Below are positions 8,646-37,021 of a stretch of 64,000 nt of DNA, in pieces. Below the pieces are notes generated by a model. The model was not told the DNA's origin. It saw only the letters and a program-made list of their open reading frames with translations, and searched no databases. Each line of letters starts with the position of its first letter. Within the stretch, counting starts at the first letter, position 1. Source of the DNA: Nitratifractor salsuginis DSM 16511 (GTDB lineage Bacteria; Campylobacterota; Campylobacteria; Campylobacterales; Sulfurovaceae); contig NC_014935.1 in assembly GCF_000186245.1 (NCBI RefSeq), forward strand, positions 1,302,001 to 1,366,000, read 5' to 3'. Made by a program: the position numbers and the translations under genes.

Positions 8646-8904
8646 CTTTCATCTTCTTTTATTACTCTAGCAATCATTAGACCATTATTTTTGTTATGGA
8701 GCTTTCATTCGATGGCGACAAAGGAGCACCCAACCCCACAGGGGCACTTTTTAGCCGTCTCCTTTGCCTTCGGCAAAAACGGAGCGTCGTGCGGAGCTAC
8801 CGACTCAAAGCAGTTTGAGTCGGCTTTACACTCCTCCTGTTTGCGACTGCCAGAGTTATCGAGTGAAAGCTCCACCTGATATGAAGAAAATTCCTACCAA
8901 TATA
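8646..8904. other. intergenic region with a perfect hairpin (8801-8824)
   Basis: I see no convincing gene in this 259-bp gap between tRNA-Thr and the 3' end of purL. It contains a perfect 10-bp stem, CCGACTCAAA at 8801-8810 and TTTGAGTCGG at 8815-8824, with loop GCAG. No U-tract follows on either strand, so it is not an obvious intrinsic terminator. A smaller complementary pair, GCCTT/CGGCAAA, lies at about 8767-8777. Confidence 0.5.
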
Positions 8905-11130
<2,226 letters not shown>

Positions 11131-31517: not shown

Positions 31518-32312
31518 ATGGGTAGTGCGGAACAGAATTGGTGGGAGGGAAAGACCCTTTTTATCACCGGTGGGGCGAAAGGGATCGGTGCAGCGACCGT
31601 CCAGGCCTTTCTCGGAAAAGGAGCCTCCGTCTGCTTCGTCGATCGCGACGAGTCCGCTGCGAAGGCCTTTCTCCGGAAACAGGGAAACTCCGAACGGTTG
31701 CTCTACATAGCGGGGGATACCCGGGATGCCCGGAGGATGGAGGAAGCGGCGGAAGAAGCCGTCGAAAGATTTGGCGGATTGGATTTCGTTGTCTCCAATG
31801 CAGGGATTCACCGGCTCGGCACCATTTTGGAAACCGATCCCCAAGTTTGGCAGGAACTCCTCGATATCAATCTCACCGGAACCTACAATACCCTCCGTGC
31901 AACCCTGCCGCATCTCATCGCACGACACGGGGGCTGCATGACCCTCATCGGTTCCGACCAGAGCTTTATCGGGAAACGCCGTAGTTTCGCCTATGGGGCT
32001 ACCAAGGGGGCCATCGGCCAGATGGCGGCATCTCTGGCACTGGATTACGCCCCGGAAAAGATCCGGGTCAATTGTGTCTGTCCCGGGACCATCGACACCG
32101 ACCTCTATCGCCAGGCCATTGCACAGATCGCCGCCGAAGAATACGGCGGCGACCTCCGGGAAGCCGAAAGACACTCAGCTCTTCAGCAGCCTCTGGGCCG
32201 CATCGGGACTCCGCAGGAGGTCGCGGCGATGGTGCTCTTCCTCGCTTCTCCGGAAGCGGGATTCATCACAGGGGCCCGGATTCCCGTAGACGGCGGCTAT
32301 ACCGCTCAGTGA
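31518..32312 (+). CDS. SDR family oxidoreductase
   Basis: A classical short-chain dehydrogenase/reductase of 264 residues: cofactor motif TGGAKGIG near residue 18, the NAD(H)-favouring Asp in CFVDRDE, NAGI near residue 94, catalytic Ser in LIGSDQSF, and YGATK near residue 157. The tail GRIGTPQEVAAMVLFLASPEAGFITGARIPVDGGYTAQ is typical. The substrate is unknown. AAGGAGAG precedes the ATG. Its 3' end overlaps the convergent ATP-grasp gene by 7 bp. Confidence 0.9.
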   Translation: MGSAEQNWWEGKTLFITGGAKGIGAATVQAFLGKGASVCFVDRDESAAKAFLRKQGNSERLLYIAGDTRDARRMEEAAEEAVERFGGLDFVVSNAGIHRLGTILETDPQVWQELLDINLTGTYNTLRATLPHLIARHGGCMTLIGSDQSFIGKRRSFAYGATKGAIGQMAASLALDYAPEKIRVNCVCPGTIDTDLYRQAIAQIAAEEYGGDLREAERHSALQQPLGRIGTPQEVAAMVLFLASPEAGFITGARIPVDGGYTAQ

Positions 32313-33298
32313 CCGATCGCCCTGCGGCGCATCATCGCAAAGATCGACTGGCGGATCTCATCGCTCCGTCGGTTGTGATAGTCAAACGGCGCGGGATGGG
32401 TTCCGCCTCCCAGAACATTCATACAGGCATTGAGCTCGAAGGGCACCAGCTGTCCCTCCCGATTGATCCCGAAATCGAGCCCGAAAAAGTCAAGTCCGAC
32501 ACGGTGCCCGATCTCCGCACACAGATGAGCGAATTTTTCGGACCCTTCAGTCAGGAACTCCTCCTCTTCTCTGCGCAGTGACGCCACGTTTGCCATCAAT
32601 TCCCGCCGGCTTCCGACGTGGACCATCCACTCTCTCGAAGCGATCATATGCCTCGGCCAGGGCTCTCCGTCGATGAAGACCATCCGGTACTTACGATACA
32701 ACCCGTCCTCTCCCCGGGTCTCTACGAAGGAAGAGAGATAATAGGCTCTCCCATCGAACGGAAAGCAATGCAGTTTCCACTCCTCGGAAGGACGGTCGAT
32801 CTTCAGGAACGTTTTTCCCCCGTGTTTCCCCGCTTCACGGACCAGAAAGGGGTATCTGACGGAACGTTCCGCCGCTTCGATCAACTCGTTTGCACTTCGG
32901 GCTACTGTCCTGATCACTGACGGAAGGCGCACCCCTTCCACACCCTCCAGAAGTCTGACAACATTTTCCCTGCCGCTGCGCACGATCCAGCGGGGATCGT
33001 TGATCACCGGCTTCTCCAGCGCTTCGATAACTTCTGCGGCCACGTTCAAGGCGTGTGCGTTGATGTCGGGATCGCAGATGGAATTGAAAATGAGGTCCGT
33101 CGGACCTACCCGTATCTCCGAGCTTTTCAACCCGCCCAGCAGCAGCGTGACCACTTCCAACGCACCGGTGCGGCCCAGATACTCCAAGAGAGGAAGATTC
33201 CCCGGAAAATGAAAATCACTCCGAAAGAGATCACCCCGGTTCTGCAGGACCCGGATCTTGCCGCTGTCAGGGATTCCGACGAGATTCAGAAGCCTCAT
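32306..33298 (-). CDS. ATP-grasp ligase A (RimK/GshB-like)
   Basis: The 330-residue protein has an N-terminal domain ending in LIFNSICDPDINAHAL. An ATP-grasp fold follows: nucleotide-binding Lys in REAGKHGGKTFLKID, then YYLSSFVETRGEDGLYRKYRMVFIDGEPWPRHMIASREW, and metal ligands in LDFFGLDFGINREGQLVPFELNACMNVL. A similar C-terminal domain occurs, as I recall it, at the end of TPR proteins in alphaproteobacteria. ATP-grasp ligases join a carboxylate to an amine or thiol. It is a paralogue of the upstream gene and overlaps it by 4 bp. Substrate unknown; neighbours point to the repeat lipoprotein. Start 33298 aligns with its paralogue. Confidence 0.8.
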   Translation of the reverse strand: MRLLNLVGIPDSGKIRVLQNRGDLFRSDFHFPGNLPLLEYLGRTGALEVVTLLLGGLKSSEIRVGPTDLIFNSICDPDINAHALNVAAEVIEALEKPVINDPRWIVRSGRENVVRLLEGVEGVRLPSVIRTVARSANELIEAAERSVRYPFLVREAGKHGGKTFLKIDRPSEEWKLHCFPFDGRAYYLSSFVETRGEDGLYRKYRMVFIDGEPWPRHMIASREWMVHVGSRRELMANVASLRREEEEFLTEGSEKFAHLCAEIGHRVGLDFFGLDFGINREGQLVPFELNACMNVLGGGTHPAPFDYHNRRSDEIRQSIFAMMRRRAIGH

Positions 33299-34296
33299 CG
33301 TTTGACACTTTTTACTGTAGAGATTTTGGCATCCATCAGGCTCTCCAGAGCGGTGACGATCCGCTTCCGCCAAGCTTCGGTGTAGTAGCCGGGTTCCTTC
33401 TCTTCGGAGAAGGGATTCATACATGCATTGGCTTCGAAGAGAAGGATCTTCCCGTCCGCCAGGAACGAACAATCGACCCCCATAAAATCGAGACCGATCT
33501 TTTCGGCAAGCACCCCAAGCGAAGCCACCCCCTCTTCCTCACTGAAAGAGAGAAAGTCGACGGCCTCTCTCTTCAGGGCCGGCGGGAGCTCTGCGATCGT
33601 GTCTCTCTGGATCTTCCAGTGTTTGGAATAGATCACATGTCCCGGAAGTATCTTCCCTGCGATGATGAAAAACCGGTACTTTCTGTAGTATCCGTCGGAC
33701 GAACGAAAATCGACGAATTCACTCAGATAGAATTCCCGTCCGTCCAGGGCATAGGCTTCCAGCTTCCCGGACTCTTCCGCGCTGTCGATCCGGATCAGGG
33801 CTCTCCCCTCCTGGCCTCCCACGGGACGAAACAACACCGGGAACTCCATGCCATACTTTTCCACCCATTCCGGAAGCTCAGCGGAGGACAGGGGAGCAAT
33901 CCGCACCGTTTTGGGCACCCGCAGCCCCGCAATACCAACCGCCAGAGAGGCTAGGCGTTCCCTGGAGCTGTTTCGCACCGCTCCGGGAGGATTGACGACC
34001 CGGACACCGGGATAAGCCCCGATCACCCGTTCCGCCGCTTCGAGCCCCTCTCGGTTGCTGTCGGGATCACATATACTGTTGCAGATCAGGGCGGGAGTGA
34101 ATCCCGGAGTGGGCGAACCGGCAGAAGGACTGCCAAGTACCAGAACACGACGGGGATATTTTTGAGGATCCAGAAGCTGCAGTATCGGCATCAGACCCTC
34201 CAGATGCAATTCCGGGTGTCCCCCCTCTCCATAGGCACGCACCACGGTCACCTCCTCCGCATCCCCGATGCTCCAGAGATCCAGGATCGTGCTCAT
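33295..34296 (-). CDS. ATP-grasp ligase B (paralogue of A)
   Basis: The 333-residue protein shares the whole layout of its downstream neighbour: ALICNSICDPDSNREGLEAAERVI in the N-terminal domain, VLFRPVGGQEGRALIRID, YYRKYRFFIIAGKILPGHVIYSKHWKI, and GLDFMGVDCSFLADGKILLFEANACMNPF with the two metal-binding acidic residues and Asn. Identity between A and B is only moderate, so the duplication is old. It starts 32 bp after the lipoprotein stop, in the same direction. The tandem pair may act in sequence or as a heterodimer (inference). Confidence 0.8.
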   Translation of the reverse strand: MSTILDLWSIGDAEEVTVVRAYGEGGHPELHLEGLMPILQLLDPQKYPRRVLVLGSPSAGSPTPGFTPALICNSICDPDSNREGLEAAERVIGAYPGVRVVNPPGAVRNSSRERLASLAVGIAGLRVPKTVRIAPLSSAELPEWVEKYGMEFPVLFRPVGGQEGRALIRIDSAEESGKLEAYALDGREFYLSEFVDFRSSDGYYRKYRFFIIAGKILPGHVIYSKHWKIQRDTIAELPPALKREAVDFLSFSEEEGVASLGVLAEKIGLDFMGVDCSFLADGKILLFEANACMNPFSEEKEPGYYTEAWRKRIVTALESLMDAKISTVKSVKR

Positions 34297-34328
34297 CTTT
34301 GTGTCACCCAGGAAGCGTGTTGCACCAG

Positions 34329-36194
34329 TTACCCATCACACTCATTCACAATTCTCCCGGCACTGCCGGGCGCTCCGCTTCCTCCCGTTCCCGGAGAGAG
34401 CGTGACATCGACATTGGACGTGAAGTTTCCATCTACATCTTCATGGAAACAGTAGGTGAGCGTTCCACCGTCACTGTTGTTGGCATCACCCCAGGAGTCT
34501 CCGCCATAGAGATAGATATTCCCGCTATTGGTAACGGTCATCGCTACATCGGCATAGAGATAGAGCCATCCTCCATTGCCACCCTTTGCACCGCTGAAAT
34601 CTTCCTGATCTTCCGCTTCATTGGCATCCGCACCATAAAGGTAGAGATCCGCTTCATTGACGAATACCTGGGGGACATCACTTTTATTGCCGAAGTCAAA
34701 ATCGATCTCGCCGTGATCATCTCCGATCCGTCCGGCCACATCTGTTCCCGCTCCTCCATTGGCTGCGATATAGGTATAGCCCTTCAGAAGAACATCGGGA
34801 ACTGCACTCGGATCGTCCCGATTCTCGTAGGAAAGTTCGATGGAGAGCTCTCCTCCATCCCCTCCGATACGGCCGTCCCCTCCGTTGACGCTCAGCGGAC
34901 CGCCCAACTGCGCGATCTCTTTCTTATCTCCAATCGCATGGATATCGATCCGTAGTTCCCCGCCCCGACCGGCTTGGCCTTCCGGGGCATCCCCACCTTC
35001 GGCTTCTACCGTGGCGAAGCCTTTGAAATCATTCTCAGATCGGAAACCCAAAGCGATAGATCCACCATCACCGCCTCTTCGTAAGTCAGGCCGTTTCCCC
35101 AAAGTGCCGGGAGCGTCTGATACATCCTCCCTCAGGTACTTCCCGCCATTTGCCGTGATTTTCCCTGCGAGGATAAACGGAAAACCATCCCTGTCGCTGA
35201 GATATATTCGACCGCCATCGCCAGCATCATCATCAGCCATATCACCCCCGTTGGCCGAAATGGTCCCGGCTGTATAGAGGCCGCCGTAACTGGTGATATG
35301 GATATCGCCGCCATCATAGCCGTTGAGAGCGTCTGCCTGCAGTCGTGCTGTCTGTGTTATGTAGATTGCGGCTTGATTCTCTGTGTTCAAATAAATATCC
35401 GCCTGACGTCCTCCATGCTTCCCACGTGCATCGATCGTTCCTGCGATTACCAGAGCCCGTTGCTCATTATTGTCTGTATCTGCAGTTTCCTGGTCCTCAA
35501 TATACAAATCAAGATGTCCCGATTCCTGTGGATCGCTGACGTCATGGCTTCCGAGATCGATCTTTCCCTCTTCACTGATAATAATCCAACCGCCTTCCGT
35601 TGTAATGCTCAGGTTAGCGGGCCTATTCTCTGCAACGAGTTTTCCGGCTTCGTCTTCTTCCTGCCTCACAACCTTCAACACACCATCGATCACCACATCC
35701 GAAACGAAGCTGTATCGGGTCGAGTCATCCCCCTCTGCCAGCACGGTAACACCGTGATCGATGCGAAGGCCGGTCGCATTCCGATCGTTGGAAGTGTCGG
35801 CATCCTCTCCGACATTCACCATCAGCTTTGTATCCTGAGAATAGAAAGGAACACCGATCAGATGGCTGTCATTACTGTCCCGAATGGGGATCACCGTATC
35901 TGCGCTGATCTCCGCCGGGATTTGACCGAAATCGGGGGTATGTGTCGGCACTTCGAACGTGGTATCCACTTTACCACTTTTTGTAATCTTCAGATTGACG
36001 CCACTATCGATCTCTATCGAGCCGCCCTTTGATCCTGCGATTTCTCCGCTTCCTCCATTTGCATTGATGCCGACCCCAGAGTTTCCGGATTCGACGGGAG
36101 CGCTTTTCCTCGCTCCGCTTCCTCCACCTCCGCAACCGCTCAAAATCAAAACCGACACCGCCGCCATCGACAGCATTATATTTCTTTGTAACAT
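34329..36194 (-). CDS. acidic Gly-rich repeat lipoprotein, candidate ATP-grasp substrate
   Basis: The 621-residue protein starts with a lipoprotein signal peptide whose lipobox is ILSGC (Cys near residue 21), then GGGGSG. The body is beta-rich and dominated by about eight irregular repeats pairing an NGGD-type turn with GGDGG(S/R/E)I: ANGGDMADDDAGDGGRIYL, AEGGDAPEGQAGRGGELRI and VNGGDGRIGGDGGELSI are examples. Asp, Glu, Asn and Gly are abundant. Two Cys lie near the C-terminus (TYCFHED, NECDG). The periodicity suggests a right-handed beta-helix or adhesin-like surface protein. First gene of the lipoprotein-ATP-grasp operon; start at 36194 gives the signal peptide. Confidence 0.8.
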   Translation of the reverse strand: MLQRNIMLSMAAVSVLILSGCGGGGSGARKSAPVESGNSGVGINANGGSGEIAGSKGGSIEIDSGVNLKITKSGKVDTTFEVPTHTPDFGQIPAEISADTVIPIRDSNDSHLIGVPFYSQDTKLMVNVGEDADTSNDRNATGLRIDHGVTVLAEGDDSTRYSFVSDVVIDGVLKVVRQEEDEAGKLVAENRPANLSITTEGGWIIISEEGKIDLGSHDVSDPQESGHLDLYIEDQETADTDNNEQRALVIAGTIDARGKHGGRQADIYLNTENQAAIYITQTARLQADALNGYDGGDIHITSYGGLYTAGTISANGGDMADDDAGDGGRIYLSDRDGFPFILAGKITANGGKYLREDVSDAPGTLGKRPDLRRGGDGGSIALGFRSENDFKGFATVEAEGGDAPEGQAGRGGELRIDIHAIGDKKEIAQLGGPLSVNGGDGRIGGDGGELSIELSYENRDDPSAVPDVLLKGYTYIAANGGAGTDVAGRIGDDHGEIDFDFGNKSDVPQVFVNEADLYLYGADANEAEDQEDFSGAKGGNGGWLYLYADVAMTVTNSGNIYLYGGDSWGDANNSDGGTLTYCFHEDVDGNFTSNVDVTLSPGTGGSGAPGSAGRIVNECDG

Positions 36195-36276
36195 TTTTTT
36201 CTCCTTTTCTCCGCAACCGGTCTGCTCACAGACGACTCAATCACCTCATACATTTTATTGTCACTTTAATAGATGT

Positions 36277-36305
36277 CTTAAAAATTAATTTTTGAAAATT
36301 TTAAG
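36277..36305. promoter_or_regulatory. palindromic AT-rich element between divergent genes
   Basis: Between the lipoprotein and the divergent regulator lies CTTAAAA (36277-36283) ... TTTTAAG (36299-36305), an inverted repeat. It contains a perfect 14-bp palindrome AAAAATTAATTTTT (36280-36293). TAGAAT follows at 36307-36312 and may be a -10 box for the regulator. A regulator operator serving both genes is inference. Confidence 0.4.
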
Positions 36306-36319
36306 ATAGAATTATCCGT

Positions 36320-37021
36320 ATGAGAGTCTTGTTACTGAGTTCCAGTAGTCGCCATTACAATTCACTTGTGAAAGAGGGGGCTCTGCTGGGCATCCGCTTC
36401 CGGATCAAAAAGAGAGAAGAGTTGACAGAAAAGGACCTGCAGGAAAGCAGGTATGAAGCCGTCATCGTCTCCATGACAACGCCGGGTACCGTACAGAATT
36501 ATCTCGAGACAATCCGCAAAATCCGCCGATATCGCAGTCGGGTCCCAATCATTGCCATCGATCATTTCGACAGCAGTTCCAAGATCGGAAACTGCCTCGA
36601 AGCGGGCTGCTCGGATTACATCAAACCCCCGGTGACCAATAAAGAGATTTTGATGAAACTCACCTTCTGGATCGAGTGGGAGACACCGGATCGTGGCCGA
36701 ATCGTAACACTGAGAAACGGATACAGTTTTGATCTCTACAAAAACGAACTGACTCACCGACAGGTCCCGGTAACCCTCAGCCGTCAGGAGGGTCTTTTCC
36801 TCCATCTTCTCGCTCGCTATAGAGGATCCTTTATTTCGGCAGAGACCCTGATCGACTATATCTGGGGCTACGGCGGTGATAAAAACCGTCTGAGAGTGCT
36901 CGTCTATAAACTCCGCAAGAAAATCGCCACCCCTTTGATCATTGCCATGAGAGGAGTGGGCTACAAACTCGAAAATCTCTCCGGTGAACTCTCTCCCCAC
37001 TGCCCGGTGCCCGGCAATTGA
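36320..37021 (+). CDS. OmpR-type regulator with non-phosphorylatable receiver
   Basis: A 233-residue protein: receiver-like domain (about residues 1-115) and an OmpR winged helix (VTLSRQEGLFLHLLARYRGSFISAETLIDYIWG, RLRVLVYKLRKKI, MRGVGYKLE). The receiver has lost its key residues. The acidic pair is SS in LLLSSSSRH, and the phosphoacceptor Asp is Ser in AVIVSMTTPG; the conserved Lys (DYIKPP) remains. It therefore cannot be switched by Asp phosphorylation in the usual way. No histidine kinase is nearby. It is divergent from the lipoprotein/ATP-grasp operon and is its likely regulator (inference). Confidence 0.88.
   Translation: MRVLLLSSSSRHYNSLVKEGALLGIRFRIKKREELTEKDLQESRYEAVIVSMTTPGTVQNYLETIRKIRRYRSRVPIIAIDHFDSSSKIGNCLEAGCSDYIKPPVTNKEILMKLTFWIEWETPDRGRIVTLRNGYSFDLYKNELTHRQVPVTLSRQEGLFLHLLARYRGSFISAETLIDYIWGYGGDKNRLRVLVYKLRKKIATPLIIAMRGVGYKLENLSGELSPHCPVPGN

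Follow-up and report, generated by a model that had tools for sequence, protein, structure and literature searches.

Layout of the locus and the lipoprotein

Here, we describe a locus of Nitratifractor salsuginis DSM 16511 (genome G000 below) in which the gene for a repeat-bearing lipoprotein is followed by genes for two ATP-grasp ligases; positions refer to the window, the whole stretch of 64,000 nucleotides that was analysed. All three genes lie on the minus strand, in the order lipoprotein precursor (621 aa by ORF reading, 34329-36194), ligase A (333 aa, 33295-34296) and ligase B (330 aa, 32306-33298). The gap between lipoprotein and ligase A is 32 bp (34297-34328) and the ligase genes overlap by 4 bp (ATGA, 33295-33298), so that the coordinates confirm the three-gene arrangement given in an earlier note on this DNA. 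Ligase B is read from the ATG at 33298, and a 388-aa frame from a TTG at 33472 was discarded as an over-extension. ORF reading of the operon leaves no room for a further gene and finds no small precursor and no biosynthetic enzyme. The earlier note did not include the divergent OmpR-type response regulator on the plus strand (36320-37021), whose closest homologues adjoin the same lipoprotein family. Regulator and lipoprotein genes have in common a 125-bp intergenic region (36195-36319, no strand assigned), and an 11-nt inverted repeat within it (36276-36306) is a candidate element only. Across the 2.10-Mb genome, ligases A and B are the only members of their family, and apart from one negligible match no paralogue of the lipoprotein was seen. 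In an empty-site comparison, no close orthologue of the flanking SDR gene was found in the genus. A role in anti-phage defence was rejected, as none of the four proteins has a PADLOC match.

Translation of the precursor gives a signal peptide (36132-36194, minus strand) with lipobox LSGC and Cys21; by the lipobox test, MLQRNIMLSMAAVSVLILSGC marks a bacterial-lipoprotein signal peptide, and the lipobox Cys is kept in the homologues of genomes G118 and G141. The protein is rich in Gly (16%) and Asp (11%) and contains 19 Lys, and the mature form has 102 Asp plus Glu against 43 Lys plus Arg (pI 4.2), which bears out the acidity noted earlier. The previous count of about eight NGGD/GGDGG-type repeats was roughly right: seven units of the [NESRK]GG[DNAK] type match, above shuffled expectation, with GGDGG occurring twice (shuffle mean 0.03, maximum 1) and GGD seven times (mean 1.7, maximum 6). 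Strands dominate the predicted model, whose confidence is low (pLDDT 56.5, pTM 0.67), and in it the NGGD/GGDGG-type turns fall between predicted beta strands. Its Foldseek matches are mostly beta-helical and not significant (best E 0.023), the top ones being mostly beta-helical adhesins, tailspikes or antifreeze proteins. The lipoprotein is thus probably, at low confidence, a beta-solenoid surface protein. Its likeness to beta-helical surface proteins of the Ag43, HMW1/EtpA and FHA type lies in these leading model matches (E>=0.023); unlike them, it has a lipobox, no beta-barrel and no sequence match in Pfam or the PDB.

The ligases and their family

Both ligases contain NSICDPD, YRKYR and FE(L/A)NACMN, as the motif reading of the earlier note had it, and are 33% identical to each other in alignment. 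Neither reaches any curated cut-off in Pfam or NCBIfam. Ligase A shows weak MptN/RimK/LysX similarity, including rimK_fam TIGR00768 (E 4.7e-8; 32.7 bits against a cut-off of 143.4), which ligase B does not match, and its best PDB sequence match is the LysX-type chain 3vpd (E 1e-5). The AlphaFold2 model of ligase A, of good confidence (pLDDT 87.6, pTM 0.87), has 629 PDB structure matches at E<=0.001, the top ones ATP-grasp enzymes, which supports the predicted fold. Among solved structures it comes closest to LysX/ArgX and RimK (5k2m, 3vpb, 7qys) and to Ddl, and the graspetide ligase PsnB stands at rank 13; because all of these lie near, the fold cannot discriminate between their reactions. The Asp/Glu/Asn metal site is intact in ligase A (D275, E288, N290) and its equivalents are present in ligase B, and judged by these residues both enzymes look active. 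By sequence, the pair is placed as distant relatives of RimK and LysX. No signal peptide was seen on inspection in either ligase, and both should therefore act in the cytosol.

The target of RimK is ribosomal protein S6, to which it adds Glu; that of LysX/ArgX is the carrier protein LysW. The window ligases resemble these enzymes in the best sequence and structure matches of ligase A and in the D-E-N metal site. They differ in a score far below the RimK family cut-off, in a conserved FEANACMN signature, and in Arg157 at what we take to be the position usually held by the second ATP lysine of RimK-type enzymes. They differ further in forming a tandem pair that adjoins an exported protein, and that protein has no conserved acidic C-terminal target. 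A LysW-like carrier role was rejected for the lipoproteins, whose C-termini are without a conserved acidic tail.

Ligase family members were found in 18 of the 399 genomes of the order sample, which was drawn evenly and is not exhaustive; genes were called with a longest-ORF caller, signal peptides and lipoboxes by simple rules, and the family search and tree rest on a 15-row alignment. The ligases are scattered and accessory, being absent from 12 other genomes of the genus. One clade of the tree (support 92/78) unites the window pair, the G118 pair, the pairs of genus g70 and the ligases of G380/G368 and G183. Within it, the A genes of the window, G118 and g70 form one group (100/97) and the B genes of G118 and g70 another (96/87); window B falls close by, in a placement that is not firm. 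From these groupings, the tandem order A-B looks old. In all four g70 genomes, ligase A lacks the Asp and Glu of the metal site, lost in this lineage, and in three of them the Asn as well; ligase B of G118 has Glu for the metal-site Asp and Ser for the Asn, and the G380/G368 ligases carry Thr in place of the Asn. Loss of metal-binding residues in one member thus affects two of the three pair lineages, which suggests that the tandem pairs may be ligase/pseudoligase partners. Catalytically inactive, truncated ATP-grasp partners are described from graspetide branch 8 (PMC8939145), and partner-dependent synthetases exist (PMC13097080). A literature search found nothing on the window ligase family beside autotransporters, beside BKACE or in Sulfurovum.

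Recurrence of the cassette and neighbours of the ligases

The lipoprotein family, sought in the order and family samples, was found in only three genomes of the order sample (G000, G118 and G141). Regulator and lipoprotein are together in all three, and the ligase pair adjoins the lipoprotein in two (G000 and G118). The full cassette of regulator, lipoprotein, ligase A and ligase B is thus present also in another genus, G118, at a different chromosomal place. The closest matches of the regulator are those of G118 and G141 (E 3e-38 and 6e-38; the next is 1e-21), each adjoining a lipoprotein gene. G141 has regulator and lipoprotein, the latter 63% identical to that of G118, and no ligase of the window family anywhere in its genome. 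Flanking genes differ among G000, G118 and G141, which implies either movement of the cassette as a whole or more than one insertion. At the G118 locus, a membrane-anchored Lys/Glu-rich protein stands between lipoprotein and ligase A; this conserved protein of ~180 aa lies directly downstream of the lipoprotein in G118 (L023, about 8799-9360) and G141 (L081, 5932-6486) and is not in the window. A further candidate homologue of the lipoprotein, in G278 (E 1e-4), was dismissed since the matching protein is unrelated and aligns by its N-terminal signal region alone. Comparison of G118, which has the ligases, with G141, which has none, gave no residue-level footprint of modification, and acidic residues of the lipoprotein were not preferentially retained where ligases are present (Asp 7 vs 7 in the two comparisons).

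Within the window clade, a large same-strand lipoprotein lies no more than two genes away in four of five lineages (G000, G118, g70 and G380/G368), against 1/93 focal control genes (naive P ~1e-6, with the clade picked after inspection and lineages only roughly independent); in the fifth, G183, an autotransporter stands beside the ligase. Large lipoproteins make up 2/357 genes in 20 control stretches, and the control rate for a directly adjacent large secreted same-strand neighbour is 10/97. Over all ligase loci taken together, signal-peptide neighbours were not enriched in a crude test (28/93 vs 37/162, p=0.23), and among the neighbour classes tested only large lipoproteins stand out. The lipoproteins of the clade belong to unrelated families: a predicted beta-solenoid in G000 and G118, a Ser/Tyr-rich lipoprotein adjoining the g70 pairs, where the opposite strand encodes a subtilase P-domain lipoprotein, and a subtilase lipoprotein in G380 and G368. 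For the Ser/Tyr-rich lipoproteins of g70 and G380/G368, hhalign points to a possible distant relationship (probability 88), the signal peptide being part of the aligned stretch. As the g70 pairs are orthologous to the window pair and adjoin an unrelated lipoprotein, a common substrate motif is not evident. A subtilisin-like partner acting in trans was considered and rejected, the P-domain proteins of G000/G118 not being BLASTP homologues of the S8 lipoproteins that adjoin ligases in G192, G380 and G368.

Two further arrangements recur. In two families of the order, a subtilase P-domain lipoprotein, a small secreted protein of ~150 aa and a Tyr/Ser-rich lipoprotein are found close to ligases, either single or in pairs (L067, 3280-7925; L068, 2278-6496; L024, 4552-8848). 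The neighbours in G183 are the autotransporter and a DUF4915-TPR protein, and an autotransporter also stands beside the ligase in G223/G109 of the sister clade; ligase, DUF4915-TPR-type protein and homologous autotransporter are kept together in two genera with ligases of different clades (L025, 8236-14158, G183; L073, 3475-9083, G223).

Outside the window clade, ligase neighbours are mostly metabolic. They include a GNAT-BKACE fusion, a GCS2-like ligase, OMP barrels, an ornithine-cyclodeaminase-like protein and, on inspection, proteins reading as alanine racemase and P450; an Alteromonas relative has a methyltransferase neighbour, a Lentisphaera relative a 2OG-Fe(II) oxygenase, and plasmid relatives from Rhizobium and Paraburkholderia a PLP decarboxylase or SerC. 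GNAT-BKACE occurs in 9/18 ligase genomes vs 5/381 others (Fisher p ~1e-10, uncorrected for kinship). It was rejected as an in-trans partner of the window pair, as no BKACE gene is present anywhere in G000 or G118. In G296 (L061, 3600-13800) and G230 (L063, 6200-11700; L062, 6900-10300), two to four ATP-grasp ligases of the family are clustered with the GNAT-BKACE fusion and with genes for a GCS2-like ligase, P450-like proteins and OMP barrels, in a candidate biosynthetic or modification locus. On Rhizobium tumorigenes plasmid NZ_CP117265.1 (L089, 8533-13284), a TPR-annotated protein spans a distant ligase homologue, with a hypothetical protein and then a PLP-dependent decarboxylase behind it.

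Candidate substrates of the ligase pair

Modification of the exported lipoprotein by the ATP-grasp pair is the leading explanation, with a probability of about 0.4, and a small-molecule ligase follows closely. The locus would be a surface-protein cassette in which the response regulator controls the beta-solenoid lipoprotein, and the two cytosolic RimK/LysX-like ligases probably work together, perhaps as a complex. With ATP, they would activate carboxylate groups, either on the unfolded pre-lipoprotein or on a small donor, and join them to an amine; the likeliest outcome would be the attachment of small amino acids or amines to Asp/Glu side chains before Sec export. Addition is favoured over crosslinks because of the sequence similarity to LysX/RimK and because the product presumably must pass Sec, which large internal crosslinks would hinder. 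The lipoprotein is a plausible substrate, and this is the simplest reading, since the operon of two ligases and one lipoprotein recurs in another genus, with different flanks; large exported proteins recur beside the clade, and LysX/ArgX and RimK, the best PDB matches of the ligase A model, act on proteins or carrier proteins. The reading is weakened by G141, by the differing lipoproteins beside orthologous pairs and by the metabolic neighbours elsewhere.

It is possible instead that the pair uses free amino acids to build a small amide or dipeptide-like metabolite and that the lipoprotein is a surface protein co-regulated without being a substrate. Relatives of the ligases adjoin amino-acid enzymes (GNAT-BKACE, GCS2-like, ornithine-cyclodeaminase-like, methyltransferase, PLP decarboxylase, SerC), and the lipoprotein of G141 does without ligases; however, the window operon has no biosynthetic partner, G000 and G118 lack BKACE, and the repeated position of the clade beside large lipoproteins would be left unexplained. 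That position also argues against chance neighbours, in which the ligases would have joined a regulator-lipoprotein cassette by transfer with an unrelated role. We consider this improbable: three lineages have A then B behind a same-strand lipoprotein (in two of them, one lipoprotein family at differing sites), and large lipoproteins are rare in the controls, even though G141 has regulator and lipoprotein alone, the ligases are scattered, and the crude signal-peptide test was negative.

Least probable of all is that the ligases install graspetide-like lactone or lactam side-chain crosslinks within the Asp/Gly-rich repeats. Graspetide (microviridin-type) systems share with this locus the ATP-grasp fold, a ligase beside a repeat-bearing putative substrate and, sometimes, two ligase genes; the repeats are rich in Asp, Ser and Asn, and PsnB is among the structural neighbours of ligase A. 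The candidate substrate here differs in being a 621-aa lipoprotein. The large graspetide survey considered only candidate precursors <=150 aa (PMC8939145), so a substrate of this size would have escaped it, and an engineered graspetide enzyme cyclises whole proteins in constructs up to 258 aa (PMC12291112), which makes protein-size substrates chemically possible. Against it, neither ligase A nor ligase B has a match at E<=1 to a graspetide ligase model of NCBIfam or Pfam, no short precursor (<=150 aa), leader or core motif was found at the window locus, Lys residues are few, and crosslinked chains would pass Sec poorly. A canonical graspetide system was rejected on the missing model match and precursor, with only the lipoprotein beside the ligases.

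We return to modification of the lipoprotein, which the earlier note had proposed. What stands is the cassette in a second genus and a clade enriched for large exported lipoproteins; a residue-level trace was not seen, and G141 is free of ligases of this family. Co-occurrence of the pair with a repeat lipoprotein, which the note suggested looking for, holds in G000 and G118 and fails for the g70 pairs. The note would have counted homologous pairs without such a lipoprotein against its proposal; the g70 pairs and the metabolic neighbours of the wider family are of that kind, and G118 is not. The pairing is real and recurrent, and the proposal that the lipoprotein may be the substrate is partly supported.

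A whole class of cytosolic ATP-grasp ligases, often in active/dead tandem pairs and dedicated to modifying large exported lipoproteins and autotransporters, is rather unlikely; searches limited to precursors of <=150 aa could not have found it. To our knowledge, the targets of the ATP-grasp protein modifiers described so far are short peptides, ribosomal protein S6 or small carrier proteins. If the clade does modify surface proteins of 400-1100 aa before export, this would be a new bacterial surface-protein chemistry, and the tandem pair, in which now one and now the other member has lost catalytic residues, would be a clear enzyme/pseudoenzyme partnership.
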